A model generated the notes under the pieces. It ran no database searches and had not been told where the DNA came from. It was given only the letters and a program-made list of their open reading frames with translations. A program made the translations under genes and the position numbers. This document shows positions 8,653 to 34,574 of a DNA stretch of 64,000 nt, one piece after another. The DNA is from Halosimplex rubrum (lineage in GTDB: Archaea > Halobacteriota > Halobacteria > Halobacteriales > Haloarculaceae). Positions within the stretch are counted from its first letter, which is position 1. Each line of letters starts with the position of its first letter. Where the stretch lies: positions 1,116,001-1,180,000 of the forward strand of contig NZ_CP058910.1 of assembly GCF_013415885.1 (NCBI RefSeq), in the 5' to 3' direction.

Positions 8653-8755
8653 TGCCTGAGTGTTCCGTACCTGAATAATTAAAACTCTCTGGGTTCAGGA
8701 GAGATCGCATCCAAACATGAAAACTAATTCTAGGGGGGAGTTCTATAGGCATTCA

Positions 8756-9505: not shown

Positions 9506-9613
9506 AAGAATGACGAGTTTAATTTTTTTCCGACGGTTCGTATTCTCAATTGACTGGAGTAAATTATTCTTTGAGGAACAGAGTAAAACAGTGGACCGAA
9601 ACGGGAGTCGAAC

Positions 9614-16760: not shown

Positions 16761-16868
16761 TGTTGTTCTTAGTATAATTGGTGATGTGAATATCTTTATC
16801 GATTCTATCCCATCGCGTTAAACATATGCGGATCAGCCATTATGCGTTTGGGTAAATCACTGGAACCA

Positions 16869-17730: not shown

Positions 17731-17740
17731 GGACCTCGGG

Positions 17741-19051
17741 TCACAGATATCCCAGGTCCTCGAGGTGGGACTCGGCTCCTGAAGGGACGCGGTCGGTCTC
17801 TCCACCCGCCCGTGGTAGCCGCGCTCTGTGGCGATCGAGCCGTTCCGAGAGGTTCTCGACCGTCGTCGAGCCGCGCTCCTCGAAGCCGTCAACCGTGTCG
17901 TACCCATAGTAGCCAGGGGGGGCCGCGACACCGCACAGCGGCTTGCTGATGTCGGTCATCCGGTCCCCCGTCTCCAGCCGCTCCAATCGGTCCTGTGCGA
18001 CCCCGTGACACTCAGTGAACGTCGGATCGTCCGGCGACAAGGTGCGGAGGTCGCGGCCGGCGGTCTCCGTCGAGACACCGGCCATCTCGGCGACCGTCGC
18101 GTGGATGTCGAGCAGACTGACGGTATCGGTGCTTGTCTCCGTTCCCCGCTCCCCGGACCAGACGACGAGCGGGACGTTCGTCAGTTCAGGGTCCAGACCG
18201 TAGAAGTGGCCCCACAGTCCGCGTTCGGCGAACAGTTCGCCGTGGTCTGCGCAGGTGATGACGTGGTCGAACTTCGTCCGCAGTTCCGAGAAGATGGGGC
18301 GGTATACGTCGGAGAGATACTCGACGCAGTCGTCGTAGCACGAGCGGATCCGTTCTGGGTCGAACGATTCGGCGGTCAATGATGCCTCGACGGTCGACGG
18401 GAACTCCCCTAGGTCTACCGATCGATACTCTGACGGCGCGACGTACGGTTCGTGCGCCTCCATGAGATTGACGAAGAGGAACCGGTCATCCCTATCGTTG
18501 AGGCTGCGGACCAACGACAACACCTCGCTGGCGCCGTCCCCTCTCGAATTCGAGGTTATGCGCCCATCAAGCCACATGTCGAGGCCGACCCTGAGCGATT
18601 CCAGCGACCGAGAGTCGCTCCGAAGACAGGCAGCGACCGCTCGCAGGTACTTCGAGACGCCTTCGTCGTCGGTCCGTTCGACGAACGCTCCCCAGTCGAA
18701 GATATCGTCGCGGAGTGTCGCCAGGTCCGAAGAGAGATGAAACCGGTCGAATCCCCTGTCGTACCCGAAAGACGGCGAAATGTAGGGATTAGCACTGAAT
18801 CCGACTGTCTCGTATCCTGTGGCTCCAAGCGCCTCGGCGATGGTCTCTCTGCCCGTATCGAGGGCGTCGCTGTTGCTGTACACACCGAGCGAACTCGGAT
18901 AATCACCACAGAACAGCGAGGCGTGCACGGGCGGCGTCCGGTGGCTCGGTGACCAGGCCCGCTGGAAATGGACGCCCGGAAGCCAGTCGAAGTGCTCGTC
19001 AAACGCGTCCTTCCTGACGGTGTCGAGTACAACGACCGCGACCCGTGCCAT
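17741..19051 (-). CDS. Sulfatase-like alkaline phosphatase superfamily enzyme 1
   Basis: About 436 residues. The metal Asp pair region begins at VVVLDTVRKDAF, the nucleophile region reads RTPPVHASLFCG, and ITCADHGELFAERGLWGHF is the second metal cluster. The formylglycine CxPSR motif is absent and a Thr is in the corresponding place. It ends in EDLGYL, a tail shared with its paralogs here. ATG 19,051 is chosen: a TATA-like GGGTTTATG (19,075-19,083) is centred 28 bases upstream, implying a leaderless mRNA; a GTG eight codons earlier overlaps that box. No signal peptide, so probably cytosolic. It may cleave or transfer a phosphate or sulfate group on the glycan; the substrate is unknown. Confidence 0.85.
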   Translation of the reverse strand: MARVAVVVLDTVRKDAFDEHFDWLPGVHFQRAWSPSHRTPPVHASLFCGDYPSSLGVYSNSDALDTGRETIAEALGATGYETVGFSANPYISPSFGYDRGFDRFHLSSDLATLRDDIFDWGAFVERTDDEGVSKYLRAVAACLRSDSRSLESLRVGLDMWLDGRITSNSRGDGASEVLSLVRSLNDRDDRFLFVNLMEAHEPYVAPSEYRSVDLGEFPSTVEASLTAESFDPERIRSCYDDCVEYLSDVYRPIFSELRTKFDHVITCADHGELFAERGLWGHFYGLDPELTNVPLVVWSGERGTETSTDTVSLLDIHATVAEMAGVSTETAGRDLRTLSPDDPTFTECHGVAQDRLERLETGDRMTDISKPLCGVAAPPGYYGYDTVDGFEERGSTTVENLSERLDRHRARLPRAGGETDRVPSGAESHLEDLGYL

Positions 19052-19144
19052 AGCTAACGTTGCGGACTCGATCACATAAACCCTTCAGCGATACGCTCAC
19101 TGCAACGATCGCGATGGCCCCGTCGTCCAGTCGAAGATAGTCGT

Positions 19145-20266
19145 TCACGCTCGGGTAACGGCGTCGTACAGTTCGGCTGTCTGTTCGGCGACATCCGACC
19201 AAGAGAGCGACTCTGCTCGCCGCCGGTTGTCTACACCGATCGCGTCGAGATTATCCGATTTGAGCCCGTTCTGGAGTGCATCTTCAAGCTCATCGGCGTC
19301 TTCCGAGTCATACAACAGCCCGCCCTCCCTCTGGACGACTGCCGGGACACAGCCCATCGCGGGGGCGACGACCGGCCGACCAAATGAAGCGGCCAGCAAC
19401 GCCGACCCGGAGGTGAGGATGTCACGATACGGCAGCGCCACGATGTCGGCTGCGTTCATGTACAGCTGTACCTCGTCGTTTGGGATGAACTGTAGATCAC
19501 TTGTGATATCTGGTTCCATATTGGTCCGCCGGAGTACATCTTGTCGTATCTCCTCGTCCATTGGTGATCCAGCGATCAGGAGGTGGCTGTCCACTGTTCG
19601 GACCGTCTTGTACGCCTTCACGAGCTGTGGGACCCCCTTGTAAGGACGTATCCGTCCGAAGTTGACAATCACCGTCGCGTCGCTCGGGAGCCCGAGCCGC
19701 TTGCGCGCTTCTCCGCGAGTCACGTCGTTCGGGTACGCGTCGATGTAGTTCCCTTCTGGAATAACCGATATCTTCCCTGCCTGAACACCAAACGCGTCGC
19801 TGACGATGGTCTTAGCATGTTCACACTCGACGGTGAGCGCATCACAGGCTGTTGCGAATAGCTTGTTTACCGCAAGGTTGATCGTTACGTGATCCTTCTC
19901 GTGGTTATACTTGTTATGTACCGTCCAGACGATGCGGATACCGAAGAGCCGGAGAACGTATGCGTTGAGTATCAGTATCGTACCACGGACGATGGAGAGC
20001 GCTCTATTGACTGTCTTTGACGGCGTATAGCCCGCCTGGAGGAACAGGGGGCCTGTCCAGACGACGTGAACGATGTCGATGTCTACCTCTGGATCGAACG
20101 CGAACCGTACAAGCGGAAACAACAGCCCAAGGAGTTCCTCGCGCGAGCCGAATCCGGCGCGAGTGGTTCCCTTGTGGGTCTGGACATCGTGATCGGCCAG
20201 CGCAGCGGTCAGGAGATTATGGTATTCATTTTGTTCGCTGTACGGAACGAACACGACGTCACGCAT
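19145..20266 (-). CDS. Glycosyltransferase, GT4-like
   Basis: 373 residues of GT-B fold. VHVVWTGPLFLQ and IVWTVHNKYNHE lie in the N-terminal acceptor half. The C-terminal half has VNFGRIRPYKGVPQLVKAY, the glycine/lysine start of the donor site, and DIVALPYRDILTSGSALLAAS in the position of the EX7E nucleotide-sugar loop, with Ser/Gly replacing the first Glu as in GumH/mannosyltransferase-like members. Its start overlaps the next gene's stop by eight bases, so it is coupled to the epimerase. Predicted cytosolic or membrane-associated enzyme adding one sugar to the lipid-linked glycan; sugar unknown. Confidence 0.87.
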   Translation of the reverse strand: MRDVVFVPYSEQNEYHNLLTAALADHDVQTHKGTTRAGFGSREELLGLLFPLVRFAFDPEVDIDIVHVVWTGPLFLQAGYTPSKTVNRALSIVRGTILILNAYVLRLFGIRIVWTVHNKYNHEKDHVTINLAVNKLFATACDALTVECEHAKTIVSDAFGVQAGKISVIPEGNYIDAYPNDVTRGEARKRLGLPSDATVIVNFGRIRPYKGVPQLVKAYKTVRTVDSHLLIAGSPMDEEIRQDVLRRTNMEPDITSDLQFIPNDEVQLYMNAADIVALPYRDILTSGSALLAASFGRPVVAPAMGCVPAVVQREGGLLYDSEDADELEDALQNGLKSDNLDAIGVDNRRRAESLSWSDVAEQTAELYDAVTRA

Positions 20267-21200
20267 GGGTCAGTCGTTCGTACTCGGTCTCGATCAACTG
20301 CTTGAGGCCCGCTCGTACCTCGTACGACGGCGACCAGCCGAATTCCTCCTGGATACGTCGTATGTCAGCACAAAGATACGGGCGGTCGGATTCGCGGAGT
20401 CGTTCGTCATCCTGGTCAATCCCGAAGTCCGTCGAAACAAGGTCACGAATCACCTCTACCAGTTCGGCGACGGAGTGTGCGGTCCCCGTCCCGACGTTGT
20501 ACCGGTCGAACGATCGGGTGGCCGAATCAAGCGGGAGTAACAGGGCATCAACCACGTCCGAAACGTGGACAAAGTCGCGTTTCGGTCGGAGGTTCCCAAG
20601 CGAGATCGATCCCTCTTCGTCGTCGATCTGGTCTAGTATCGCCGGGATGACGTGCGGGTTCGTCTCTCCCGGGCCATAGACATTGAACAATCGATACATC
20701 ACCGACTCGAAATCGTATCTAGTTGCGAACCGCTCGACAATATCCTCACCGACGAGTTTTGTCTGGCCGTAGATGTCGGTCGGTCGCGGCCGCTCGGACT
20801 CTACGTGTGGTTCTTTGGCTGGCCCATAGACCGCTGCGGAAGAGGCATAGACGACCGTCTCGACGCTCGCCCGCCGGACCGCCTCCAGAACGCGTCGCGT
20901 CCCGATGACGTTCACGTTGAACGTTTCTCTCGGGTTCTCGTTGCAGTACGGGATGTAATGGCGAGCCGCGAGATGGTAAAGAGTATCGGGATCGAACTCT
21001 GTGATGGTCTCGGCAGTCTCCGGGGCACAGATATCTCGTTGGGTGTACGAGATTCTCTCGTGCTGTGGCGTGTGCGACCCCGACGAGCAGTCGTCGACGA
21101 TCAGCAGCCTGTGGCCGCGGTCGGAGAGTGCCCGCGCTAGGTGAGATCCGATGAACCCTGCACCACCGGTTACGGCGATCCGTCGTCCTGAATCACTCAT
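20259..21200 (-). CDS. NAD-dependent UDP-sugar epimerase/dehydratase
   Basis: 313 residues from ATG 21,200: the family N-terminus RRIAVTGGAGFIGSHL follows at once. VVYASSAAVYGPA, YGQTK (YxxxK) and FNVYGPGETNPHVIP are all intact. GalE/WbpP/RmlB-like; the product may be a hexose epimer or 4-keto sugar. The same frame continues upstream to 21,416 without a stop, but those 72 codons have no SDR similarity and are treated as part of decayed upstream DNA. It is transcribed with the GT4 gene that it overlaps. Confidence 0.87.
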   Translation of the reverse strand: MSDSGRRIAVTGGAGFIGSHLARALSDRGHRLLIVDDCSSGSHTPQHERISYTQRDICAPETAETITEFDPDTLYHLAARHYIPYCNENPRETFNVNVIGTRRVLEAVRRASVETVVYASSAAVYGPAKEPHVESERPRPTDIYGQTKLVGEDIVERFATRYDFESVMYRLFNVYGPGETNPHVIPAILDQIDDEEGSISLGNLRPKRDFVHVSDVVDALLLPLDSATRSFDRYNVGTGTAHSVAELVEVIRDLVSTDFGIDQDDERLRESDRPYLCADIRRIQEEFGWSPSYEVRAGLKQLIETEYERLTHA

Positions 21201-21858
21201 CACCGGAGAATGAGCAACTAAAGTCAAGAAGGTTTCTCCCCGATACCGGGGGCGATACGCGATGCCGATCGCAGAGAGGAGCCGTTCGGCGACGCTCGAG
21301 CACGTATGGTTCCAGCTAACGTACACCCGTCCGTGCCGGTCTATCTCCAGACGCGCCGCCCGCCATCGGTCACGCAACGAAGCGATGGAGTCCGAAACTA
21401 CCGGGATCTCTCGCATAAAATCTCAAACGCGTGTCGCTGCCGCGGGGACTCCTAAACAAACACCGCTTCGCGGTAGTCCGGAGTGACACGGCCATAGGCC
21501 GAGTTCAGGATTGCGCGTGCGTCCGACGAACCCCATCGCATACTGCCGGATTTTGCGGCCTGGGTAATAGAAGTGGCCACTGTTCCAGGGGCTGGCCAGA
21601 CAGGTTACTTCACGGATACGGCATTCATCAAGTACTGTCCTCAACCTGTGATAGTGGTTATTCTGGATATATTGAATACGCCAGATTATCGTCGTCATAT
21701 CCCGCGAGCAAGTCTTCAGCGTGCGATGCCTGCCGGGCAACCGTCAGGACAACGGAACCGCTGTCGGTATATCTCCGTGATTGTACTTGATGACGATAAC
21801 TAACCAATCCAGATAGATCGGTAACGATATCTCGGAAACGAACCGTCGCGATCCTATG
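21201..21858 (-). other. Gene-free interval with protein-like debris
   Basis: No intact gene is seen. On the minus strand, 72 codons directly before the epimerase (21,416-21,201) read like a real protein (REIPVVSDSIASLRDRWRA, SSVAERLLSAIG). A TGA lies three codons upstream of that stretch. I do not recognise the family. It is best explained as a decayed gene whose 3' end fused in frame to the epimerase; the rest of the interval is unassigned. Confidence 0.35.
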
Positions 21859-23397
21859 TTATAAGTAGCCCATATCCTCGAGCTGGCGCTGCAAACGCTC
21901 ATCTGAGACCGTCTCATCGTATATGCGGTCGCCGAGCGGAGTCACTGACGACTCTAGGACCGATGCCAGACGGTCCACTTCGGACGATGTCGCGGCAAGA
22001 TCTGTAGTCTCGTCTGTGTCCTCTCGCCAATTATACAGCTCCTGGGTATCGTCCGCGCGACGGATAAGTTTCCAACTGTCGTCGCGAACACTTTGAAGGG
22101 GGCCGTTCTGCGGCGTGTCTGTAAACTCCGTGTGATGACGACGGACCGGACTAGCGGGCTTGCGGCCGACTTCGGCGAACAGGTATTCGTGATCAGTGGC
22201 TGAAAACAGATCTTCTGCGAACCGTGGGCACTCGAATTCGGCTTTAGCTAGGTTGACTATTGTCGGGAACAAGTCGATGAGCGATACCATCTCCGAGCGA
22301 CGTGTTACGGACTTCCCCACTGGCGTTCCATCTTTGGACTGGCCTTCGGCTGACGCCTGGATGTCGGTCCTCTCAGGCAGGCGGACAACCAATGGGACAC
22401 GCAGCAGTTCGTCATACAGCGAGTAGCGGTGTTTGCCGAGACCGTGGTCGCCGAACTGCTCGCCGTGGTCTGCCGTGACGACGACACAAGTGTTCTCGAG
22501 TAGTCCGTGTTCTCGCAGATGGCCGACGATGTCTGCAACGCGATCGTCCATGTAGCGGATCGCACCGTCGTACCAGGCTTTCACGGTCGCGAGTTCTTCG
22601 TCGGTTGGGTCTATGGTATCCGCGATGAGCGGGTACTCTTGGGAGATCCGTCGAACACGGTCGATGTCGCCCTCCGGGAGGGACTGTGGTTCACGCCCTA
22701 ACTTCTCCGCTAGTAGTTCGATTACGTCGATAGGCGGCCGATCAACATCTGAAAACAGTGATTTGTACGGCCGCGGCGGATCATAAGGATGGTGTGCTGT
22801 CTTGAAATTCACGAAGGCAAAAAACGGATCGTCCCCGGGGTCAGTTCCGATCCACCGCTTCAGACGCTCGGTCTTATAATAGGTATAGTTATCGTGGCCA
22901 CGAACGAGCGAATAGACCAACTGTTTTACCGCTTCCGAGTCGGCGAGTGCACGGCGAAGAAATCGCGCTGAAGGACGGATACGAAACGTCTCGTGGAAGG
23001 CATCGAATCCGCGTTCGAACCCGCGGCCACTGCGAATATGTACTCCTGCTGCCGTGCCGAAGGTTCGATAGCCTGCCGACGAGAGACGCTCCGGAATGGT
23101 CGGGTAGTTTTCGGGGATCGTGAGGGTGTCACCGTAGACACCCGTTTCGGAGGGGAGGCGGCCGGTGAAAAGCGCTGCATGGGACGTCGGCGTCCAGTTG
23201 GAGTTAGCAAAGGCGTTCTCGAAGACGAGCGAGTTTTCGGCCAATGTGGAGAGAAACGGGTCCGTTTTGCGGCCGTAGCCGTACGTTGAGAGGTGGTCGG
23301 GCCGAACGGCGTCGAGGACGACAAGCAAGACGTTCGGCCGGTCCATACCCACAGATGAGTCCGGTACGGTTGTTTGTTTTTTGGTCACTCCGATCAC
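21859..23397 (-). CDS. Sulfatase-like alkaline phosphatase superfamily enzyme 2
   Basis: 512 residues. NVLLVVLDAVRPDHLSTYGY is the first metal motif, NWTPTSHAALFTGRLP holds the nucleophile position, VVTADHGEQFGDHGLGKH is the second metal site and SVRDDSWKLI is the late strand typical of sulfatases. The formylglycine Cys is replaced by Thr. The C-terminus is LEDMGYL, matching its neighbours. GTG 23,397 overlaps the stop of the upstream GT4 (GTGA), which supports this start over the internal ATG 23,346. No signal peptide. It is the last gene of a coupled operon 25,504 to 21,859; function in trimming or decorating the surface glycan is inferred. Confidence 0.88.
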   Translation of the reverse strand: MIGVTKKQTTVPDSSVGMDRPNVLLVVLDAVRPDHLSTYGYGRKTDPFLSTLAENSLVFENAFANSNWTPTSHAALFTGRLPSETGVYGDTLTIPENYPTIPERLSSAGYRTFGTAAGVHIRSGRGFERGFDAFHETFRIRPSARFLRRALADSEAVKQLVYSLVRGHDNYTYYKTERLKRWIGTDPGDDPFFAFVNFKTAHHPYDPPRPYKSLFSDVDRPPIDVIELLAEKLGREPQSLPEGDIDRVRRISQEYPLIADTIDPTDEELATVKAWYDGAIRYMDDRVADIVGHLREHGLLENTCVVVTADHGEQFGDHGLGKHRYSLYDELLRVPLVVRLPERTDIQASAEGQSKDGTPVGKSVTRRSEMVSLIDLFPTIVNLAKAEFECPRFAEDLFSATDHEYLFAEVGRKPASPVRRHHTEFTDTPQNGPLQSVRDDSWKLIRRADDTQELYNWREDTDETTDLAATSSEVDRLASVLESSVTPLGDRIYDETVSDERLQRQLEDMGYL

Positions 23398-24581
23398 TCC
23401 TCGGCCTCTTCAACGTGTGCTCTCGGTCGCTGGAGCGTGTCAGGGAGGACGCGTCGGGCCACCGTCGCCCAGGTATGGTTTGCGAGGACGTACTCGCGGC
23501 CGCGGACCCCCATCTCGCGGCGTCGGTTCGGGGTGGAATCGCGGAGTTCGCGAACGGCATCGGCAACGGCAGCGGGCGTTACCTCTTCGATGACGACACC
23601 GGCGTTCTTGTGTTCGACGAAGGTCATTTCCGGGGAACGACTTGTTAAAACGGGTCGCTCGCAGGCCAGATACTCGTATACCTTGATCGGGTTCGATGGG
23701 CGCTTCGGATTGACGACACCGTATGCAGCATCACAGGCCCCGATGTAGGTCGGTACCGCGTTGTATGGGACCTGCCCGACGAACGTAACCTGTGACTCGA
23801 TAGTCAGGTCTGCCGTGAGCGTACGTAGGCGGTCACCAACGGGACCGCTTCCGACGACCAAGAGATGCACGTCCGGTACGTCCGAGAGGGCCCGAAACAA
23901 CGCCGGGAGCATCTGGCGCTCAGCGAGTGTCCCAACGAACCCGAGAACAAATGTATCCGGCGGCAGGTCCGCTTCGCACGCGACGCGTGCTTCTTCCCGG
24001 TTAACGGGGGTGAACCGCTCTGGATCGACGGCGTTCGGAACGATTTCGATGTGCGATTGGTCGAGACGGCGGTAGTCTCCGATGGCCTCACGAACGGCCT
24101 CGAAGGCAACGGTTACCTCGTCGGCCAATGAAACGTTGAGGCGCACCACCTGTTCGACGATGGCCGAGAGTTTCGTCCGATCGTATTCGTCGTCGCGGTT
24201 GACGACACCGCGGACCATGAGAAGATACGGGATACTAAGCGCCCGGCAGATGGGCGCAGGAAACAGAGTGCTCTGGGCGAGGCGCGTGACGACCGCTGCC
24301 GGGCGTTCGACACGGATAGCGGCCAGTAGATGCCAACCCAATGCCGTTTCGATTTTTGCGTGCCAGAGTGGATGGCCAGGATTAGTTTCGGCCGGTAGGA
24401 AGCGAAACCGGTCGACGACTGCCCGCAGGTCCGTGGATAACGTCTCAGCGGGGTCGGGACAGATGACACAGAGGTCGGCCGTCGTCACCGAACCGATGGC
24501 GCGGACTATCTCTCGGGTGGCGACGCCGCTACCGCTTGTTTTCGAAAGGTCGTTCGTGCTGACGAAGATGAGCGAAGTCAT
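23394..24581 (-). CDS. Glycosyltransferase family 4
   Basis: 395 residues. The N-terminal domain starts with IFVSTNDLSKTSGSGVATRE. The donor domain has VNREEARV, FVGTLAERQMLPALFRAL and PSNPIKVYEYLACERPVLTS, where E...E of the EX7E motif binds the nucleotide sugar. It overlaps the sulfatase-like genes on both sides (ATGA with 24,578 and GTGA with 23,397), forming a tight three-gene unit, so the transferase and the phosphatase-like enzymes are made together. Retaining GT adding one sugar on the cytosolic side; donor unknown. Confidence 0.9.
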   Translation of the reverse strand: MTSLIFVSTNDLSKTSGSGVATREIVRAIGSVTTADLCVICPDPAETLSTDLRAVVDRFRFLPAETNPGHPLWHAKIETALGWHLLAAIRVERPAAVVTRLAQSTLFPAPICRALSIPYLLMVRGVVNRDDEYDRTKLSAIVEQVVRLNVSLADEVTVAFEAVREAIGDYRRLDQSHIEIVPNAVDPERFTPVNREEARVACEADLPPDTFVLGFVGTLAERQMLPALFRALSDVPDVHLLVVGSGPVGDRLRTLTADLTIESQVTFVGQVPYNAVPTYIGACDAAYGVVNPKRPSNPIKVYEYLACERPVLTSRSPEMTFVEHKNAGVVIEEVTPAAVADAVRELRDSTPNRRREMGVRGREYVLANHTWATVARRVLPDTLQRPRAHVEEAEE

Positions 24582-25504
24582 AGGTAGCCGAGCTGTTCGA
24601 GACGGTCCGCGACGACATCGTCAGTTGTCTCATCGTCTCTGCTGGTCGGCGCTTCGGCTACGATGTCCCGTCGCTCGCCCTCGACAACCAACCATGGGAC
24701 GGTGACGAGTTGGTCTGTGTAGATACCACGTGGGTGTCCCCACTCGCGGATGGGGAACGGTCGGGCACGTTCACCCACCATGTTGCCGTGGTCAGAACTA
24801 ACGACCGAGCGGCCATCGAGATCTGCCAACAGGTCGACGACGTGCGGGAGCGAGCGGTCGAGGTTGTTGCGGTAGGCGCACCAGACTGTTTCGGTCGACG
24901 CCTGTAGGTCCCCAGTGAGCAGCTGGTTCCAGCTTCCCGCCTCGTCGGGCTTGAGAAATGCCTGGTCAGGGTCGAACGGCTGTGATCCGTCCCCGTCGAT
25001 GATGAATGGATAGTGTGGTTGGATGTAGTGGACGAGCAGTCGCTTGTCCGGGTACTTTTCGGCAGCTCGCAGGGCCGCGGTTGTCGTCGTCTCAGGGAGG
25101 ACCGTCATGTGCTCGTTGTCCCATCCCTCCTCCATCCAGACGTGATCGACGGCGTGGAAGGAGGTGTTGAGCCAGTCCCGGTGGCGGTATAACTGTGGAT
25201 TTGCGGTGACGTACACCGTATCATGGAGTTCTCGACCCTGGAAGTTCCCCTTGAGAAACTCTCGTGTGCTGGACCCGCGTGAAACACGACTTTCTAGACG
25301 CCCGCCAAGGTCCGCTTGTTCCGCGAACATGTCGTACCGGCATGCGTCCAGAATCAGGAGATTGTCCCAGTCCTCCGCGAAGATGTCGACGCCGTCGGTG
25401 TTGTAGTCTCGACTGTTGAGTCGCCGGTGATACAGCCGGTTTGCCTCCCGAAGAAACAGCGCGGGCGTCGCGAACCCGCGCTTCAGCTGCGAGAGGGAAT
25501 ACAT
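24578..25504 (-). CDS. Alkaline-phosphatase-superfamily hydrolase, short type
   Basis: 308 residues. LLILDACRYDMF is the first metal motif, SRGSSTREFLKGNF contains the probable Thr/Ser nucleophile, LVHYIQPHYPFI follows, and VVSSDHGNMVGERA is the second metal site. The protein is shorter than ordinary sulfatases and lacks their C-terminal subdomain, but ends in EQLGYL like its larger relatives. It is first in its operon, coupled by ATGA to the GT4. A broken copy lies at 30,136-30,959. The start is supported by the TATA element about 27 bases upstream (leaderless). Substrate unknown. Confidence 0.85.
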   Translation of the reverse strand: MYSLSQLKRGFATPALFLREANRLYHRRLNSRDYNTDGVDIFAEDWDNLLILDACRYDMFAEQADLGGRLESRVSRGSSTREFLKGNFQGRELHDTVYVTANPQLYRHRDWLNTSFHAVDHVWMEEGWDNEHMTVLPETTTTAALRAAEKYPDKRLLVHYIQPHYPFIIDGDGSQPFDPDQAFLKPDEAGSWNQLLTGDLQASTETVWCAYRNNLDRSLPHVVDLLADLDGRSVVSSDHGNMVGERARPFPIREWGHPRGIYTDQLVTVPWLVVEGERRDIVAEAPTSRDDETTDDVVADRLEQLGYL

Positions 25505-25524
25505 GGCCGCACAAAGATGCTGAT

Positions 25525-25536
25525 GGGTTTATACCC
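25525..25536. promoter_or_regulatory. Palindromic TATA element shared by two divergent genes
   Basis: GGGTTTATACCC is nearly its own reverse complement and is the only TATA-like element in the 58-base gap. Its centre is 27 bases from the ATG at 25,504 (minus) and 32 bases from the ATG at 25,563 (plus). A single box could thus place a leaderless start on one side and a start with a leader of a few bases on the other. The element is lost in the duplicated copy near 30,960. Confidence 0.5.
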
Positions 25537-25562
25537 TTTCGGTGGCGCAGTAGGACACGTCG

Positions 25563-26690
25563 ATGGAGGTCTGTTATCTCATCAATCAACTGGCACCCGG
25601 CGGCGCGCCGACGCTCCTTCTCGATCTCGTCAGGCGGACCGACGACCCCGCCGTCTCATACACAGTCTGTTTCATCGAAGGCGACGACAGCCTCGTCGAA
25701 GACCTGCGCGAGGCCGGCGCCGAAGTGGTCGACTTCGGTGCATCGTTCAAGTTCGATCCCCGGGCACTAGTCCGGACTGTATGCTTTTTCCGCCGTCACG
25801 AGTTCGACGTTCTCCACGCGCATCTCCCCTACTCACAGACGCTCGGACGGATCTCTGCGCTCCTCGGAACCGTCGACGCAGTCGTCAGCACACAACACAA
25901 CGTCCCGGAGAACTACCACCCGATAACCCGGGTCCTCGAACGCGCGACGCGACCGCTCGACGACGCGACGGTCGCTGTTTCGACGGGCGTCGAGCGAGCG
26001 TTCCGTGGCGCGGCCCACCGCTACGACGGGACCCTCGATGACGGCTGGTGTACGATCTACAACGGCGTCGACGTCGGCGAGTTTGAGGTTGCGGTCGAGG
26101 CGGCCGACCCCGGATCGCTGGATATCGCGGTTGACGACGACGCGCTTGTCTATCTGAACGTCTCGCGGTATGTCCCGGCCAAGGATCAAGGGACACTCGT
26201 CGATGCGATGGCGACCGTTGTCGACCGCGAACCGGCGGCACGGCTGTTCATCGTCGGGTGGGGGCCCAAAGGGCATTCGCTCCGGGAGCGTGTCCGTCAG
26301 CGCGGACTCGACGATGCCGTGACCGTCACTGGCCGCGTCCCGTCCGTCCACCCGTACTACGCGCTGGCGGACGTGTTCGTCTCCTCATCAGTGTTCGAGG
26401 GGCTACCGATCGCCCATCTTGAGGCGATGGCTGCCGGGCTTCCAGTGGTTGCGACCGACATCCCCGGTGTTGACGAAGTCGTCGTTGACGGCGAGACGGG
26501 ACGGCTCGTTCCGCCAGAGTCGCCCGACGCGCTCGCGTCGGCGATGTGCGAACTGACTGACGTGAACCGCCGAACTGACTTTAGCCGCGCGAGTCGCCAG
26601 CGAGTCAGCGAGGAGTTCGACATTGCTAGTACCGTCGAAGCCCACCGCCGGCTATACGAGTCTCTTTCTACTGGGGGCGGCGACGGATGA
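25563..26690 (+). CDS. Glycosyltransferase family 4
   Basis: 375 residues. The N-terminal glycine loop LINQLAPGGAPTLLL binds the acceptor side. AHLPYSQTLGR, NVSRYVPAKDQGTLVDAM, LFIVGWGPKGHSL and SSVFEGLPIAHLEAMAAG follow; the last is a canonical EX7E donor loop. Predicted retaining transferase of the lipid-linked glycan. It is divergent from the phosphatase-like gene and followed after 73 bases by a membrane protein. A homologous fragment of its C-terminal half occurs at about 30,964-31,370, where it is joined to the end of the membrane protein. Confidence 0.9.
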   Translation: MEVCYLINQLAPGGAPTLLLDLVRRTDDPAVSYTVCFIEGDDSLVEDLREAGAEVVDFGASFKFDPRALVRTVCFFRRHEFDVLHAHLPYSQTLGRISALLGTVDAVVSTQHNVPENYHPITRVLERATRPLDDATVAVSTGVERAFRGAAHRYDGTLDDGWCTIYNGVDVGEFEVAVEAADPGSLDIAVDDDALVYLNVSRYVPAKDQGTLVDAMATVVDREPAARLFIVGWGPKGHSLRERVRQRGLDDAVTVTGRVPSVHPYYALADVFVSSSVFEGLPIAHLEAMAAGLPVVATDIPGVDEVVVDGETGRLVPPESPDALASAMCELTDVNRRTDFSRASRQRVSEEFDIASTVEAHRRLYESLSTGGGDG

Positions 26691-26763
26691 ATTCACGATA
26701 CGTCTGTCTGGATAATCGAACACGGGCTAACTGTTTTGTCGACGGACGTGAGTCACAGGAACG

Positions 26764-27939
26764 ATGACCCGTCGACGACGGTCCCGAGTCGGTGTGGCGG
26801 TCTTCCTCGTGGCGCTCGCGGTACGACTGGCCGGCGTCGCAATTACGAGTCTGACGGCGCTGAATCCGTACGCCAAGGCGGATGCCGGTCGATTCGCGGC
26901 CAGTGCCGCCGAAACTGCCGCAACGCTGGCCGCCGGCGGTTTTCCGGTGATCCCGACGAACCCGAATCGAGTCGTCACACTCTGGGGGCTGTTCCTCTCG
27001 CCGCTTTGGCTGTTGCCGGGACCGAACAGATTGTACGGGCGGCTGTTCGCCGCACTCCTCGGTACAGTCGCCGTCTACGGACTATTTCGACTGGGTGAGG
27101 CCCTTCACTCCCAGGAGGCCGGCCTTGTAGCTGCGCTCCCGCTCGTCTGTTATCCGAGTTTTGTCTTCGTCCACAGCACCGTCCTCCGTGAGTCGTTTGT
27201 CCTTGCCGGGCTCGTATGGGCCACGATACTGTTGGGTGGCACCGAAGCGGTGCCCTCGCGGCTCCCGGAGCGGTTGGGGCCCGCGTGGGTCCCTGACGGG
27301 AGTATTCGGTTGATCGCCGGATTCGTCACGTTGGGGCTTATATCGGTGGTCCGATGGGAGAACCTGCCGTTGTACACGGTCGCGGTAGGCACGGGTTTCG
27401 CGGTCGGCCACCGTGAGGAGTTCACGCGCCTTCGTCTCGCCGCTGTCGGGAGCGTGGCCACAATTTCCGGCCTGATCGTCGGCCGTCCGCTGGTCCGGTC
27501 GGCGCTCGACTTTCTGGTCACCAAGCGCCGGCGTCGAAGCGAGGGGCGGACGGTGTACCTTCCCGAATTCCGATCCGATACGATCCCTAAAGCTGTCGCA
27601 TTCGCACCGGTCGGAGTTCTTTACTTCCTGTTCACGCCGTTCCCCTGGATGGTCGAGACGGTGGCCGACGCGGTCGTGTTTCCACAGGCGATCGGGAATC
27701 TCGTTGCGGCTGTCTTCGCGGTCGCGGGCGTCCCGTTCCTGTGGCGACGCGCCGAGCGAACGACCGGCGCGCTCGTCGCTGCCTTCCTCCTCGGGACGAT
27801 GCTGTACGGGCTCGTCAACGCGAACGTGGGTACGAACGTCCGACAGCGACAGATGTTCCTTTGGGTGCTCTTCCTGTTCGCCGGTGTTGGCATCGCGGCA
27901 CGGTTCGATCTCGCCGACCGCCTTGACCAGCTCGGATGA
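26764..27939 (+). CDS. Polytopic membrane protein of the glycan locus, GT39-like topology
   Basis: 391 residues with about nine to ten hydrophobic segments starting directly after MTRRRRSR (positive inside). A loop with an acidic residue follows the first helix (NPYAKADAGRF), the place where GT-C transferases keep a catalytic Asp. I cannot name the family with certainty; GT39/ArnT-like or polymerase-like proteins share this topology. The C-terminus NVRQRQMFLWVLFLFAGVG recurs in the fragment at 31,370-31,483. It follows a GT4 on the same strand and is probably cotranscribed. Confidence 0.7.
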   Translation: MTRRRRSRVGVAVFLVALAVRLAGVAITSLTALNPYAKADAGRFAASAAETAATLAAGGFPVIPTNPNRVVTLWGLFLSPLWLLPGPNRLYGRLFAALLGTVAVYGLFRLGEALHSQEAGLVAALPLVCYPSFVFVHSTVLRESFVLAGLVWATILLGGTEAVPSRLPERLGPAWVPDGSIRLIAGFVTLGLISVVRWENLPLYTVAVGTGFAVGHREEFTRLRLAAVGSVATISGLIVGRPLVRSALDFLVTKRRRRSEGRTVYLPEFRSDTIPKAVAFAPVGVLYFLFTPFPWMVETVADAVVFPQAIGNLVAAVFAVAGVPFLWRRAERTTGALVAAFLLGTMLYGLVNANVGTNVRQRQMFLWVLFLFAGVGIAARFDLADRLDQLG

Positions 27940-28133
27940 CTGTCCGCGCGCTGATTCGGGGCGACCTGACCGACATCGTTAGGGGTCTGAACAGTCGTAT
28001 GGTGAACGATGACCGCGGGCCTGCTTGGTCGTGATGATAGGCCACCTAATTCCTCGGGCCGGCGAGCGCCACGGCGGTGTCCTCGCGGCGACGGACCGAT
28101 ACGTGACCGCAACGCCAGAACGGGTGGCCGCCG

Positions 28134-28786
28134 ATGACCCAGAACGTCGTCGTGGTGATGGACACCGTCTGCTACCGGGACGTGTTCCCCGACAATGAGA
28201 CCGCCACGCCGACGCTCGAACCGTTGGCAAGCGAGGGCACCAGCTTCGACCGTGCGATCGCACCGGTACCGTGGACACTCCCCTCCACGCCTCGCTGTTC
28301 ATCGGCACGTATCCGTCGAAACACGGCGCCCACGCCGGCCACAAGCACCCCGGCGACGACCTCGCGACGCTCGCCGAGGCGATTCCGGGGGAGTCGTTTC
28401 GTCTCGTCGGACCACCCGGACAGGACGAGATGTGCAACGAGCAGGTGCGATCACGCGTCGGCAACCTGGACAACGTTGAGCACTGCGGTCACGTCCCGCC
28501 GACGGAGATCCATTCCTACTACCTAGAGGCCAAGGCACTCGTCAATACCTCGGCCTACGAGGGATTCCCGAGCACGTTTCTCGAAGCGTGGCGGTACGAT
28601 CCACCAGTTGTGGCACTCGACGTACCGCCGAGTCGGTTCGCCACCGATTCAGCCGATGCGGGTTACGCCGAGGGGGATTTCAACACGCTGGTGGAGTTGG
28701 TCTCGGCACTTTCGGACGAACCTCACGCTTGACGCGGTCGCCGGTCAGTATCGGACGCTCTTCGACGAGATTCTCTTGGAGGGGTG
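28134..28786 (+). pseudogene. Hybrid pseudogene: sulfatase-like N-terminus joined to GT4 C-terminus
   Basis: The first 50 codons (MTQNVVVVMDTVCYRD to PWTLPS) match the intact sulfatase-like gene at 31,667. About base 28,284 one base is missing relative to that copy, and the frame shifts to ASLFIGTYPSKHGAHAGH and DDLATLAEAI. Near 28,385 the match stops, and the sequence continues as a glycosyltransferase end: EIHSYYLEAKALVNTSAYEG, FPSTFLEAWRYDPPVVALD, then after another shift AGQYRTLFDEILLEG. Neither half can work. It is the decayed right end of duplicated block 1 plus an unrelated GT4 remnant. Confidence 0.8.
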
Positions 28787-28914
28787 AGTCGAATTACCAG
28801 CGTTCGACACGAGCATTGGAGGGCGATCGGAGACCGATCTGTGAGCGGTCAGTAGCCACTCAGGCTAGGGTTTCGACGTATTTATTTCAGGCTGCACAAC
28901 ATCGACGACAGGGG

Positions 28915-30126
28915 ATGTCACGGGCTCGTCGACGAAAACTGTCGGGACAGCTGTCGGCGCTCGATGACCGTCTGGACGACAATCTCCCCGCGGTGTACAT
29001 CGCACTGTTCAGTATCGCGATTCTGGCGCGATGGAGCTACTGGCTTCAGGATCGCACTCGGATCAACCCATCCTCGGAGGTCTTTCTCGGGATCTGCCGT
29101 GGTCTCTCCACGTCGCCACTCGAAGCCCACCATACAATCCTCGCACAGGGCAGCGGCGGTTACTGGTATTTCTTTTCCGGATACTGGGTCCCGATGTGCG
29201 GAATCCATTCGGTTAGCGGGCCGGACGCGGTCGTCATCGCCCAGATTCTCCTCTCCTCGGGGACGGTCCTGCTCGTGGCGGATACGGCCCGCCGCTACCT
29301 CGACGTTCGCACGGCGATCGTCGCTGGACTGCCTATGTCGGCGCTCGCTGACACGTTCGCCTGGACGACGCGGTTGCTCTCCGACACGGCGTTCACGTTC
29401 GCGGTCGTGGCCGCGGTCTGGCAACTGACGCGGTACGACGAGCGACCAACCAACCGAAATCGCTTTCTCGTGTATGCCGCGCTCGGCTACTTGGCGGTCG
29501 TGAAGGTGCAGGGACTTCCCATCGTGCTCGCGTACTTGGCGTGGGATCTCCTGCCCGACCGATACGACCTCTCCTACGGGCTGTATCCGTATCAGCGCGC
29601 GGCGCTCGTGATCGCTGCGTTGGCCGTCCCGCTCGTAGCGATTATCGCCGTCCCGGCCTGGGTGAACTACGTCTCTCACCACCTCTACTCGGGGACTGTC
29701 GTCCAGTTCGACGACACGTTCCGGTACGCGTACACTCCTCGTGGGACTGGATCGGAGTTTCGATTCGTCGCGCAGAATCTCGACCATCTGTTCGTCCTAT
29801 TCGTGTTGAAAGTCACGTTCCTCTGGTTACCCGTCATCGACCGTTTCTCGCTGCTCCACAACGCCGTGAACGTGGTGACGCTCGCCCCGACGATCGGGCT
29901 GGGATGGACCGGTTTAGTACTCGCTGCCCGCGAGCGACCTGCTCTGGCCAGAACGGCCGGTACGCCGCTCGTCGTGCTCACGCTGCTGGTCGGAGCGACG
30001 TTCGTCGACTTTAGCTGGGGATACCGGGCACCGATGACTCCTCCACTGGTCGTACTTGGGTCGTACGCCCTCCACCGAGCCGCTCGTGAAGTTCGCGTTC
30101 GAATGCTCTCAACTGGCACGACGTGA
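28915..30126 (+). CDS. Polytopic membrane protein, paralog of the gene at 43,073
   Basis: 403 residues from ATG 28,915, which is followed by a basic segment (SRARRRK) and then about ten hydrophobic helices. An AT-rich TATTTATTT lies about 32 bases upstream; the open frame further upstream codes for no known protein and overlaps the GT4 debris. Shared with the protein at 43,073-44,260 are FSGYWVPMCG, FAWTTRLLSD, FDLLP with RYDL, RFSLLHNA and DFSWGYR. Topology and the extracellular loop after helix 1 (INPSSEVFL) fit a GT-C-like lipid-sugar-dependent transferase or polymerase. I do not recognise the exact family. Confidence 0.75.
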   Translation: MSRARRRKLSGQLSALDDRLDDNLPAVYIALFSIAILARWSYWLQDRTRINPSSEVFLGICRGLSTSPLEAHHTILAQGSGGYWYFFSGYWVPMCGIHSVSGPDAVVIAQILLSSGTVLLVADTARRYLDVRTAIVAGLPMSALADTFAWTTRLLSDTAFTFAVVAAVWQLTRYDERPTNRNRFLVYAALGYLAVVKVQGLPIVLAYLAWDLLPDRYDLSYGLYPYQRAALVIAALAVPLVAIIAVPAWVNYVSHHLYSGTVVQFDDTFRYAYTPRGTGSEFRFVAQNLDHLFVLFVLKVTFLWLPVIDRFSLLHNAVNVVTLAPTIGLGWTGLVLAARERPALARTAGTPLVVLTLLVGATFVDFSWGYRAPMTPPLVVLGSYALHRAAREVRVRMLSTGTT

Positions 30127-30135
30127 GAAATTGGA

Positions 30136-30959
30136 TCAGACGTATCCGAGCTGTTCGAGACGCTCGCTCACTATCTCGTCCGCTGTCTGCTCCTGTTCCT
30201 CTCGGGGTGTTCGTCGGCGATTTCGCGACGCTCACTGGGGACGATTAGCCACGGTACTTTCACTAACTGCTCCGTGTAAATCCCGCGTGGATGCCCCCAC
30301 TCGCGGATCGGGAAGGGGGGCGCGCGATCACCGACCATATTTCCGTGGCCGGCGCTGACGACGGACTTCCCGTTCAAATCCGTTAACAGGTCGGCAACGT
30401 GGGGAACTGCTCGATCCAAATTATCGCGATACGCTTGCCAGACAGCTTCGGCGGGGACTCGAAGATTGCCGGTGAGTAGCTGGTTCCAGCTACCAGCCTC
30501 ATCGGGCTTGAAAAATGCCTGGTCAGGGTCGAAGGGCTTCGATCCATGGTCGTCGATGATAAACGGATAGTGTGGTTGGATGTAGTGGACGAGCAGTCGC
30601 TTGTCCGGGTACTTCTCGGCAGCCTCCATCGCGGCAGTCGTCGTCTTCTCGGGGAGAACGGTCATGCGCTCCTCGTCCCACCCTTCTTTCATCTAGACGT
30701 GCTCAACAGCGTGGAAGGAGACATCAAGCCGGTCGCGGTGCCGGTATAACTATGGATTGGCGGTGACGTATACTGTGTCGTGGAGGTTACGGTCACGGAA
30801 GTTTCCCTTCAGGAACTCCCGCGTGCTCGACCCCCGAGAGCTTCGACTTTCCAGGTCACCATTGAGCGTCGACTGCTCAGCGAACATATCGTACCGGCAC
30901 GCGTCCAGAATCAGGAGGTTGTCCCAGTCTTCGGCGAAGATGTCGACGCTGTCGGTATT
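30136..30959 (-). pseudogene. Broken copy of the short phosphatase-like gene
   Basis: Homologous along its length to the gene at 24,578-25,504 but 5'-truncated after the codons for NTDSVDIFAEDWDN. Two nonsense changes are plain: CAG to TAG where the intact copy has NPQLY (near 30,750), and TGG to TAG where it has HVWMEEGW (near 30,693). The metal Asp of SSDHGNMV is Gly (SAGHGNMV), and a frameshift near 30,200 disturbs the end before EQLGYV. It is the left end of duplicated block 2. Confidence 0.88.
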
Positions 30960-31483
30960 CCCGCGAGTTCAATCATGAGCCGAATGCCCGACTGTTCATC
31001 GTCGGTTGGGGGCCTCGTGAAGATCGACTCCGCGATCGGATCCGCCAACGCGGGCTGGGTGACGCCGTAACCGTCACCGGTCGCGTTCCGTCGGTCCACG
31101 AATACTATGCACTGGCCGACGTGTTCGTCTCTTCGTCGGTGTTCGAGGGATTGCCGATCGCTCACCTGGAGGGGATGGCCGCAGGGCTTCCGATAGTTGC
31201 GACCGACATCCCTGGTGTCGTCGAGGTCGTCGTCGACGGCGAGACGGGGTTGCTCATCCCACCGGAAGACCCAGGGGCGCTGGCGTCGGGAATGTGCGAA
31301 CTTGCGGACGCTACCCGCCGGACCGAATTCGGTCACGAAGGGCGCCAACGGGTCGAAAGCAAATTCGACATCGGTGCGAACGTCCGGCAGCGCCAGATGT
31401 TTCTCTGGGTCTTCTTCCTGTTCGGTGGTGTCGGCGTCGCCGAGCGCGTCGACCTCACCGAGTGGTTCGACTGGCTCCGGTGA
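30960..31483 (+). pseudogene. In-frame fusion remnant: GT4 C-terminus joined to membrane protein C-terminus
   Basis: Codons from about 30,964 (FNHEPNARLFIVGWGP) through EFGHEGRQRVESKFDI match the second half of the GT4 at 25,563. At about 31,372 the reading continues without a stop into GANVRQRQMFLWVFFLFGGV, the last segment of the membrane protein at 26,764. A deletion therefore removed the N-terminal half and start of the GT4 and nearly all of the membrane protein. No proper start remains; GTG 31,121 would give a 120-residue product with the EX7E loop and one hydrophobic segment. Probably non-functional. Confidence 0.85.
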
Positions 31484-31553
31484 CCGCACCACCACCCTAT
31501 CCGGTCCGTTCCGACCGACATTGTTAGGGGCCTGAGCGGACGTGTGGCTAACG

Positions 31554-31670
31554 ATGGCTGCCGAACCCTCCGTTCGCGAAACAGTCTACCCTCGGCTCTT
31601 CGGTCGAGTTCGGGCGGGGGAGTCCGACAGCGATGTCGCGACGACACTCACAATGGGGGAGCGGCAGTGA
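31554..31670 (+). CDS. Small upstream reading frame coupled to the sulfatase-like gene
   Basis: 38 codons (begins MAAEPSVRETVYPRLF) ending in a TGA that overlaps the GTG start of the next gene (GTGA). The overlap and the regular codon use suggest a translated leader or the remnant of a coupled gene; no family is recognised. The DNA just before it (about 31,513-31,556) is conserved with 27,970-28,012 in the other copy of the duplication. Confidence 0.3.
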   Translation: MAAEPSVRETVYPRLFGRVRAGESDSDVATTLTMGERQ

Positions 31671-33172
31671 CACGAAACGTCGTCGTCGTGGTGATGGATA
31701 CGGCCCGCTACCAAGACGTCTTCCCTGAGGACGAGACCGTCGCACCGACGCTCGAATCGCTCGCCGCAGAGGGAGCCAGTTTCGACCGCGCGATCGCCTC
31801 AGCCCCGTGGACGCTCCCCTCACACGCCTCGCTGTTTACCGGTACCTATCCGTCGAAACATGGCGCCCACGCCGGCCACAAGCACCTCGGCGACGACCTC
31901 GCGACGCTCGCCGAGGCGTTCGCGGGCGCCGACTACGAGACCGTCGCCGTCTCGAACAACACCTGGATCAGCGACGAGTTCGGCTTCGCCCGCGGGTTCG
32001 AGCGCTTCCGCAAGACCTGGCAGTACCTCCAGGCTGACACTGACCTCGGTCGGGTCGCTCGCACGAACGAGGGACGAGAGAAACTTCGCGAGGTCACCCG
32101 GGCGCTGTTCGACGGCAACCCCGTCGTCAACGCGCTCAACGCGGTGTACGGGCAGTTCGTCCGTAAGCGTGAGGACAGCGGCGCGCATCGGACCAACGAG
32201 TGGATCCGGGAGTGGCTCGCCGACCGCGACGGCGAGCGGCCGTTCTTCTGTTTCGTGAACTACCTCGAACCCCACCTAGAGTACCGGCCGTCCCGCGAAA
32301 CCACCGAGCGGTTCCTTCCGGAGGGGACGAGCTACGACGAAGCGATGGCCGTCCCGCAGGACGCGTGGTCGTACGTCGCGGGCGATCTGGACCTTTCCGG
32401 CGGGGACTTCGAAGCGTTGCGCACGCTCTACCGCGGCGAGATTGCCTACCTCGACGACCGGATCGCCGAGCTGCGCGACGCGCTCGAAGCGGCCGACGAG
32501 TGGGAGAACACGGTGTTCGTCGTTACGGGCGACCACGGAGAGAATATCGGCGATCACGGGCTGATGGACCACCAGTACGCCCTCTACGAGACGCTGCTCC
32601 ACGTCCCGCTGGTGATCCACGGTGGCCCGTTTGCAGGTGGAGCCGACGACCGGTTGGTGTCGCTGACCGATCTCGCGCCGACGCTGCTCGATGCCGTCGA
32701 TGTCGACGCGCCGGCGTTCCGAGAACAAGCACAGGGAGAGTCGCTGCTTGACGACGACCGCGAGGAGCGCGAGCACGTCTTCGCCGAGTACCTCGCACCG
32801 CAACCGTCGATGGAAGCGCTCTCCGAGCGCGTGGGCGGCCTCTCCGAGGACGTGTCCCGATACGACCGGCGGCTGCGCGCCGTCCGGGGCGACGATTGGA
32901 AGCTCATTCGGGGGTCCGACGGCTCACGGGAGTGTTATCACCTCGGCACGGACCCGACGGAGACAGTAAACCGTCTTTCGACCGACGACGAGGAGGGAGC
33001 CGACGACGGGCTGAACGAGAGATCGATCGACGCCACGAAGCAGGCGGAAACCCTCGACGGCGCGCTCGACGACTGGCTCGACTCCTTCGACCATGCCGAC
33101 CCCGAGAGTGAGGCGACGATGTCCGACGGGGCGGCCGAACGACTCGAAGATCTCGGATACCTGCAGGAGTGA
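31667..33172 (+). CDS. Sulfatase-like alkaline phosphatase superfamily enzyme 3
   Basis: 501 residues from GTG 31,667, chosen because the decayed copy at 28,134 begins at the same codon (ATG). NVVVVVMDTARYQD is the first metal motif, PWTLPSHASLFTGTYPSKHG the nucleophile region (Thr instead of formylglycine Cys), FVVTGDHGENIGDHGLMDH the second metal site and VRGDDWKLIRG the late sulfatase strand. The C-terminus is LEDLGYLQE. No signal peptide, so probably cytosolic. This is the only intact gene of duplicated block 2. Its upstream neighbours are all remnants, so it must use its own promoter. It probably acts on a phosphate or sulfate ester in the glycan pathway; unproven. Confidence 0.88.
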   Translation: MTRNVVVVVMDTARYQDVFPEDETVAPTLESLAAEGASFDRAIASAPWTLPSHASLFTGTYPSKHGAHAGHKHLGDDLATLAEAFAGADYETVAVSNNTWISDEFGFARGFERFRKTWQYLQADTDLGRVARTNEGREKLREVTRALFDGNPVVNALNAVYGQFVRKREDSGAHRTNEWIREWLADRDGERPFFCFVNYLEPHLEYRPSRETTERFLPEGTSYDEAMAVPQDAWSYVAGDLDLSGGDFEALRTLYRGEIAYLDDRIAELRDALEAADEWENTVFVVTGDHGENIGDHGLMDHQYALYETLLHVPLVIHGGPFAGGADDRLVSLTDLAPTLLDAVDVDAPAFREQAQGESLLDDDREEREHVFAEYLAPQPSMEALSERVGGLSEDVSRYDRRLRAVRGDDWKLIRGSDGSRECYHLGTDPTETVNRLSTDDEEGADDGLNERSIDATKQAETLDGALDDWLDSFDHADPESEATMSDGAAERLEDLGYLQE

Positions 33173-33389: not shown

Positions 33390-34574
33390 ATGACGATCCT
33401 CGTCACCGGCGCCGATGGGTACATCGGCTGGCCGACCGCCCTGCGTATCGCGAACCGGACGGACGACCGCGTGCTGCTCGTCGACAACTTCGCCCGTCGC
33501 GAGTGGGTCGAAGAGGTCGGTTCGAAGAGCGCGACGCCCATCACGGGTATCGACCAGCGAATCGAGGCCGCGGAGGACGTGTTCGGCATCGGGAACATGT
33601 CCTTCGTCGAGGGCGACCTCGTCGAGAAGGACTTCGTGGACGAGCTGCTGGCGGTCCACGAACCGGAAGTCGTCGTCCACGCGGCCGCCCAGCCCTCCGC
33701 GCCGTATTCGCAGATCAACGGCGAGCGGGCCAACTACACCCAGCACAACAACATGCAGGCGACGCGGAACCTGCTGTGGGGGCTGGAGGAACACGACCTG
33801 ACGGACACGCACTTCATCGAGACGACGACGACGGGCGTCTACGGCGCGCCGGAGTTCCCCATCCCCGAGGGCGGCGCGACGATGGAGAATCAGGGTGACA
33901 GCGACGAGGTGCCGTTCCCGGCGATGGCGGGTTCGTGGTACCACCTCACCAAGAGCCACGACGCGGCGAACATGCGGCTGGCCCACCAGCAGTTCGACAT
34001 CCCGATTTCGGACGTGCGCACGGCCATCACGTACGGCACCGAGACCGAGGAAACCCGCGAAGATGACCGCCTCAAGACCCGCTTCGACTTCGACTACTAC
34101 TTCGGCACGGTTGCCCACCGCTTCGCCGCCCAGGCCGTCGCGGGCTATCCCGTTACCGTCTACGGCAAGGGCGAGCAGCGCAAGCCGTTCATCTCGCTGG
34201 AGGACGCCGTCGAGGGCCTCGCGAACCTCGCCCTGCAGGACCACGCGGAGCGCCCGGACGACCTCACGGTGTACAACCAGGTCACCCGCGCTATCTCCAT
34301 CGTCGAGATCGCCGAAACCATCGCGGGCGTCGGCTCGGAGTTCGACCTCGACGTCGCCGTCGAGCACTTCGAGAACCCCCGCGACGAGGACGAGACCCAC
34401 AAGATGGAGATCGAGGACGACAACTACGCCGCCCTCATCGGCGACCAGGCCCAGGACTTCGAGAGTGGTATCCGCGACGTGTTCGAGTCGCTGACCGCGC
34501 AGGCAGACACGATCAAGGCACACGAGGATCGGTTCCTCCCGGGCGTCCTCGAAGACTGGGACAGCGAGGAGTAA
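33390..34574 (+). CDS. SQD1/Agl3-type UDP-sulfoquinovose synthase-like protein
   Basis: 394 residues. ILVTGADGYIGW, LVDNFARREW, ITGIDQRI, VVHAAAQPSAPYSQI, YTQHNNMQATRNLLW, ETTTTGVYG and SWYHLTKSHDAANM follow the order of SQD1, including the QPSAPYS segment, the catalytic Thr region and YxxxK. SQD1 enzymes convert UDP-glucose and sulfite to UDP-sulfoquinovose; Agl3 does this for the Sulfolobus N-glycan. The product would feed a sulfated glycan or glycolipid. It leads an operon, with the next gene starting three bases after its stop, and carries a TATA box and an inverted repeat at its start. The family call is strong; sulfite use is inferred. Confidence 0.87.
   Translation: MTILVTGADGYIGWPTALRIANRTDDRVLLVDNFARREWVEEVGSKSATPITGIDQRIEAAEDVFGIGNMSFVEGDLVEKDFVDELLAVHEPEVVVHAAAQPSAPYSQINGERANYTQHNNMQATRNLLWGLEEHDLTDTHFIETTTTGVYGAPEFPIPEGGATMENQGDSDEVPFPAMAGSWYHLTKSHDAANMRLAHQQFDIPISDVRTAITYGTETEETREDDRLKTRFDFDYYFGTVAHRFAAQAVAGYPVTVYGKGEQRKPFISLEDAVEGLANLALQDHAERPDDLTVYNQVTRAISIVEIAETIAGVGSEFDLDVAVEHFENPRDEDETHKMEIEDDNYAALIGDQAQDFESGIRDVFESLTAQADTIKAHEDRFLPGVLEDWDSEE

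Follow-up and report, generated by a model that had tools for sequence, protein, structure and literature searches.

Complementary broken gene sets in a predicted surface-glycan island of Halosimplex rubrum: a likely decayed merodiploid of two island haplotypes

Surface-glycan islands described in haloarchaea include the cell-wall island GI1 of Haloquadratum, in which gene duplications or inversions were not observed (PMC4535781), and the agl clusters of Haloferax (PMC5867893), and flexible genomic islands of the replacement type are known for surface glycans (Lopez-Perez et al. 2014, PMC4033161). In Streptococcus pneumoniae, transformation generates merodiploids and binary capsulation, the structures of the binary-capsule merodiploids being stated to be undefined (PMC3784515), and in the polyploid haloarchaeon Haloferax volcanii gene conversion is efficient, even between the genes of different species, with tracts often longer than 600 nucleotides (nt) and some longer than 4 kb (PMC8223754). 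Here we describe a window of 64 kb from the single-contig, 4.48-Mb genome (contamination, 1.08%) of Halosimplex rubrum (NZ_CP058910.1, positions 1,116,001 to 1,180,000; G000:C1:1116001-1180000 in our comparison set), which carries, inside a predicted surface-glycan island, two blocks of similar genes that the original prediction had called a degraded segmental duplication with reciprocal gene loss. The reciprocal loss and the single gene set that it leaves were borne out, and the duplication, as stated, was not. Instead, the locus is likely to be an exchangeable surface-glycan island in a decayed merodiploid state, in which two diverged haplotypes were joined head to tail and then trimmed, and its origin probably lies in the exchange of a gene cluster between species and not in a simple duplication. 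Comparisons were made with 146 genomes of the family, one per species, of which three Halosimplex relatives were compared at the island, namely H. pelagicum R2 (G005, locus L109), H. salinum YPL4 (G006, locus L107) and G003 (locus L108).

Comparison of the whole window with itself by BLAST returned three collinear matches between block 1 (24,578-28,389) and block 2 (30,136-33,172), one match of 60 nt, and nothing else. The three matches paired 24578-25402 with 30136-30959 (75.1% identity, E = 1.9e-155), 26238-26581 with 30986-31329 (76.5%, E = 4.8e-68) and 27829-28389 with 31373-31926 (72.3%, E = 2.8e-77), far above chance, and the lack of extended similarity by which the original prediction could have failed was thus not seen. 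Both blocks are made up of a phosphatase/sulfatase-like gene (A), a GT4 glycosyltransferase gene (B), a membrane protein gene (C) and a sulfatase-like gene (D), the numeral after each letter denoting the block; block 1 alone has A, B and C whole, and block 2 alone has a whole D. A1 (24578-25504, minus strand) encodes an intact alkaline-phosphatase/sulfatase-like protein of 308 amino acids (aa) that drew no match from the Pfam and NCBIfam profiles. It is followed on the plus strand by B1 (25563-26690; intact, 375 aa; PF13692, E = 5e-38) and by C1 (26764-27939), an intact multi-pass membrane protein of 391 aa with weak PMT_2 similarity and 72% aa identity to its counterpart in G003. D1 (28134-28389, plus strand), in contrast, is a 5′ stump of a sulfatase-like gene that bears a 1-nt frameshift deletion and is cut after ~260 nt.

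The reverse applies to block 2. A2 (30136-30959, minus strand) is a pseudogene that has lost its first 101 nt and carries in-frame TAG at codons 104 and 123 as well as frameshifts. On the plus strand, B2 (30960-31373) is an internal/C-terminal fragment equivalent to B1 codons ~218-354, and C2 (31368-31484) consists of the final 117 nt of the membrane protein gene, 85% identical to that of G003 and 75% to C1. D2 (31667-33172, plus strand; GTG start picked by alignment) encodes an intact sulfatase-like protein of 501 aa (PF00884, E = 5e-39) with 81% aa identity to the D protein of G003 and 69% to that of H. salinum. Reading frames and lesions thus agree with the original prediction as to which genes are intact and which are broken, and the lesion map leaves exactly one full A-B-C-D set. 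Beyond point mutation, block 2 collapsed through two deletions, a feature that had escaped the first reading. The DNA preceding the two sulfatase-like genes is conserved on the plus strand, as had been claimed, 27954-28016 being 75% identical to 31499-31561, and it is present in G003 as well.

Between the blocks lie two further elements missed in that reading. The first, E′ (28390 to ~28787, plus strand), is a GT4 gene reduced to a 3′ stump and shortened further by an internal deletion; its full-length form, E, is the immediate left neighbor of A in H. pelagicum (L109 7754-8866). The E′ protein is 77% identical to the product of that gene and at most 54% identical to anything else in the comparison set. 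The second, F (28918-30126, plus strand), encodes an intact PMT_2-like membrane protein of 402 aa (PF13231, E = 3.5e-8) and lies between E′ and A2. F is absent from the corresponding place in the relatives; its closest relative is a membrane protein encoded at 43073-44260 of the window (45% identical), all others in the 146 genomes being at most 36% identical, and the search for its origin in these genomes returned distant relatives only. D1 and E′ meet at a junction of parental sequences that can be located at ~28375-28389, the D1 side and the E′ side matching different parent genes. The junction (28370-28389, plus strand) holds a 12-nt stretch in which both parents encode Leu-Ala-Glu-Ala, so that a single join accounts for the loss of both genes.

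The surroundings of A-B-C-D in the relatives distinguish the two blocks. The island is bounded on the left by an ABC transporter gene (1-1470, plus strand; 72-78% by blastn to the equivalent position in G003, G005 and G006) and on the right by a UDP-sulfoquinovose-synthase-like gene (33390-34574, plus strand) that is 93-97% identical at the aa level in the relatives and scores 345 bits against NF041015, under the cut-off of 575; the conserved right anchor region begins at ~33340. Both anchors were found at the same place in the three relatives, and the gene content between them differs among the four genomes, the island measuring 31.8 kb in H. rubrum, the largest of the four, 19.4 kb in H. salinum, 13.7 kb in G003 and 22.7 kb in H. 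pelagicum. The single-copy versions whose existence would speak against a plain duplication were found at this very place: H. salinum carries GT4-A-B-C-D and G003 carries A, a different glycosyltransferase gene, C and D, each in one copy, and H. pelagicum carries E-A followed by other genes, A being its only member of the set at this anchor. At an E-value threshold of 1e-40, A occurs twice at one locus in H. rubrum only, among the 146 genomes. To the left of block 1, a segment with sulfatase-like, GT4 and epimerase genes (16828-21241, minus strand) is collinear with H. salinum and 79% identical over 4.4 kb to G006:C25:245560-249989, which lies left of the single A-B-C-D there, and the GT4 gene directly left of A1 (23394-24581, minus strand) has a counterpart, 48% identical at the aa level, that is the immediate left neighbor of A in H. 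salinum (tblastn, L107 5981-7165, E = 2e-114). The left flank of block 2, in contrast, is E′, of H. pelagicum type. As judged by these similarities, A1 and A2 each carry the left neighbors of a different species' A gene, and the boundaries of the two units are not those of one copied block. Separately, a GT4 gene beyond the right anchor (39497-40672) has an H. salinum relative (L107 12104-13327, 72% nt identity) that sits on the opposite side of that anchor, flanked by D and the UDP-sulfoquinovose-synthase-like gene.

The blocks have likewise diverged to about the same extent as orthologs of other Halosimplex species, and even of Haloarcula. Nonsynonymous (dN) and synonymous (dS) divergence was estimated by the NG86 method, a dS of ~1.5 being near saturation, so that the values rank divergence and give no date. 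The A pair yielded a dN of 0.14 and a dS of 1.49, and dS was 1.27 for the B pair and 0.87 for the C pair. All block 1/block 2 gene pairs displayed a dN/dS of 0.09-0.24, indicative of purifying selection and thus of copies that diverged as functional genes, and dS was several-fold above that of two adjacent, anchor-side backbone genes compared between species (0.23-0.49). C2 (85%) and D2 (82%) are both close in identity to their counterparts in G003, as compared to 69% between D1 and D2, and D2 is nearer to G003 than to D1 over most of its length. The two blocks are thus as different as the alleles of separate species and sit inside the same island, as two allelic versions on one chromosome. 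Decay, on the other hand, is young: otherwise conserved residues are changed at 10 of 139 positions in A2, both stops included, versus 9-14 of 144-149 in four intact relatives, from which it follows that the function of A2 was lost recently.

Two short tracts depart from this pattern. In the A pair, 24884-25064 and 30441-30621 (minus strand) are 84% identical, with a 59-nt core at 98% (codon-shuffle p = 0.001, GENECONV-like p = 0.0014, both p-values being indicative, as is that for D below, since the tracts were chosen after inspection of the data), and no other comparable pair was seen among six A genes. Outside this tract, A1 and A2 are 71.7% identical, versus 72.2% for A1 and the G003 gene, 70.6% for A2 and the H. 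salinum gene and 70.4% for A2 and the H. pelagicum gene, and quartet counts are balanced and star-like, A1 and A2 being no closer to each other than either is to the A gene of another species. In the D pair, 28286-28389 and 31823-31926 (plus strand) are 91% identical up to the junction, where the tract ends; six of six quartet-informative sites pair the blocks there, versus 6 of the 33 in C-D upstream of 28,286 (change-point permutation p = 2e-4). That the high-identity ends of A2 and D1 are mere conserved motifs holds in part, for the 5′ end of A2, where A2 and its H. salinum counterpart also share ~83% identity; it fails for the middle tract of A and for the end of D, at which the informative sites single out both blocks. 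Short gene conversion between co-resident blocks is the simplest account that these patterns suggest for both tracts, which are probable conversion tracts; alternatively, a third source may have supplied the same segment.

Taken together, these observations suggest the following course of events. The resident haplotype, [E-(F)-A2-B2-C2-D2-backbone], would have been joined head to tail with another, [GT4-A1-B1-C1-D1], probably through transfer from another haloarchaeon. Block 2 would be the resident and block 1 the incoming copy, because block 2 adjoins the conserved anchor and its C2 and D2 are similar to the C and D genes that G003 has at this place. The join would have fallen within the short coding stretch common to D1 and E and truncated both genes in one event, the loss of D1 being better attributed to the joining breakpoint itself than to independent decay; with D1 cut by the join, D function could persist as D2 only. 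The surplus A2, B2 and C2 would then have been removed by two deletions (~0.8-kb and ~1.2-kb equivalents) and a few point lesions, the outcome being a single working A-B-C-D set drawn from two sources. Short tracts of A and D may have been homogenized during the time in which the blocks co-resided. It is possible, and less than probable, that tandem haplotypes are in general resolved after transfer in this manner, by microhomology-mediated joins and deletions together with short ectopic conversion tracts, and not by crossing over.

Several observations weigh against a merodiploid origin. A was found at this place in three relatives of the genus only, so that its single copy could reflect loss. 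The adjacency of E′ and A2 is imperfect, F separating them but missing in H. pelagicum. No genome among the 146 offered a donor closer than ~75-80% for the haplotype from which block 1 would have come, and a search for one parent genome per block returned no close donor, which leaves transfer as no more than the most likely mechanism. Neither repeats nor a mobile element mark the junction. In the A tree, A1, A2 and the H. pelagicum gene form a polytomy, and a sister relationship of A1 and A2 was not rejected (p-AU = 0.47). The D tree joined D1 to D2 with support of 82/74, D2 with the G003 gene likewise not being rejected (p = 0.167). Over the 83 codons of D1, moreover, dS between D1 and D2 is just 0.53, lowered by the high-identity tract. 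Whole-gene trees had been considered as an arbiter of sisterhood and were set aside, being star-like and without resolution. It is also common for an island to contain two distant A-family genes, a second, distant family member occurring at 22 of 77 loci, and the presence of two such genes in one island was accordingly rejected as a rare sign.

An ancient tandem duplication of A-B-C-D, predating the split of Halosimplex, with long selection on both copies, differential loss per lineage and recent reciprocal decay, is an unlikely alternative that draws on some of the same data. The sister pairings just mentioned for A and D fit it, the low dN/dS between copies agrees with a long functional co-existence, and the conversion-like tracts point to copies residing in one genome. 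It requires, however, the independent loss of one copy in every relative, and the sister signal that it predicts is absent outside the tracts; nor does it sit well with a left neighbor of block 2 that is of H. pelagicum type and unlike that of block 1, or with C2 and D2 being mostly nearer to G003 than to C1 and D1. The original prediction in its plain form, a segmental duplication that arose recently in this lineage and decayed fast, would yield a collinear repeat with complementary broken genes, but it is very improbable and was rejected: dS values of 0.9-1.5 at a dN/dS of ~0.1-0.2 cannot arise from recent neutral decay next to a backbone at 0.23-0.49, and the copies of the relatives match each block as closely as the blocks match one another. 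The layout also resembles two concatenated haplotypes, such as an assembly chimera of two strains would produce, an explanation that is hard to credit for a single-contig genome of so little contamination, in which deletions, stops and frameshifts sit in the surplus copies so that one full set survives, as would not be expected from assembly error. That some stumps still function, the D1 leader/upstream DNA or the A2 fragment for example serving as a regulatory RNA or a recombination substrate for cassette switching, is scarcely plausible, for despite the conserved DNA upstream of D1 and D2 and the inter-block exchange to which the tracts point, the same upstream DNA precedes D in G003, so that plain inheritance may suffice, and neither an inverted arrangement nor a recombinase or repeat capable of supporting switching was observed.

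The island is predicted, from its gene content, to synthesize a surface or N-linked glycan, because it holds glycosyltransferase, epimerase, sulfatase-like, PMT_2-type and nonulosonic-acid genes, with an STT3-like gene nearby. In its left part (7588-10648) are encoded a NeuB/PseI-like synthase, a CMP-sugar transferase and PseG (TIGR03590, above cut-off), which together would form a pathway to a nonulosonic acid of the pseudaminic/legionaminic type. At 53007-55940, an STT3/AglB-like oligosaccharyltransferase carries a LamG-like (Laminin_G_3) domain at its end (residues 829-968), a fusion that looks unusual. Elsewhere in the A family, plasmids of Halostella pelagica and Salinibaculum litoreum (100,265 and 100,260 bp; loci L125 and L126) are 99.97% identical over 20.9 kb, A-family gene included, pointing either to one plasmid in two genera or to assembly cross-contamination.

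Island swaps between lineages are usually inferred from clean before and after states; here, both haplotypes, the join and a partial clean-up would be visible at once. The locus is thus an intermediate open to testing, and it suggests that a swap may pass through a two-set stage resolved by loss from either side. If true, resolution by join, deletion and conversion would offer glycan islands a general way of becoming mosaics. The locus also cautions that complementary broken genes need not imply duplication.

The case is ordinary in kind and unusually legible. As in replacement islands, a variable surface-glycan island lies between conserved anchors, with species-specific gene sets, purifying selection and apparent exchange by recombination; in those islands, however, one version cleanly replaces another, whereas here two versions lie adjacent across an illegitimate-looking junction, with the surplus decaying. 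The proposed tracts are ~60-180 nt long and lie between copies ~72% alike, unlike the much longer ones of Haloferax volcanii. Complementary losses that leave one full set recall duplication-degeneration with reciprocal loss, from which the locus differs in that its copies appear to be xenologs of two lineages and that the loss of D1 was probably built into the join. Like the pneumococcal merodiploids, finally, it would have held two versions of a surface-polysaccharide locus together after a DNA transfer, in a temporary state; those were laboratory events, whereas this appears to be a natural archaeal case, seen after its surplus had decayed.

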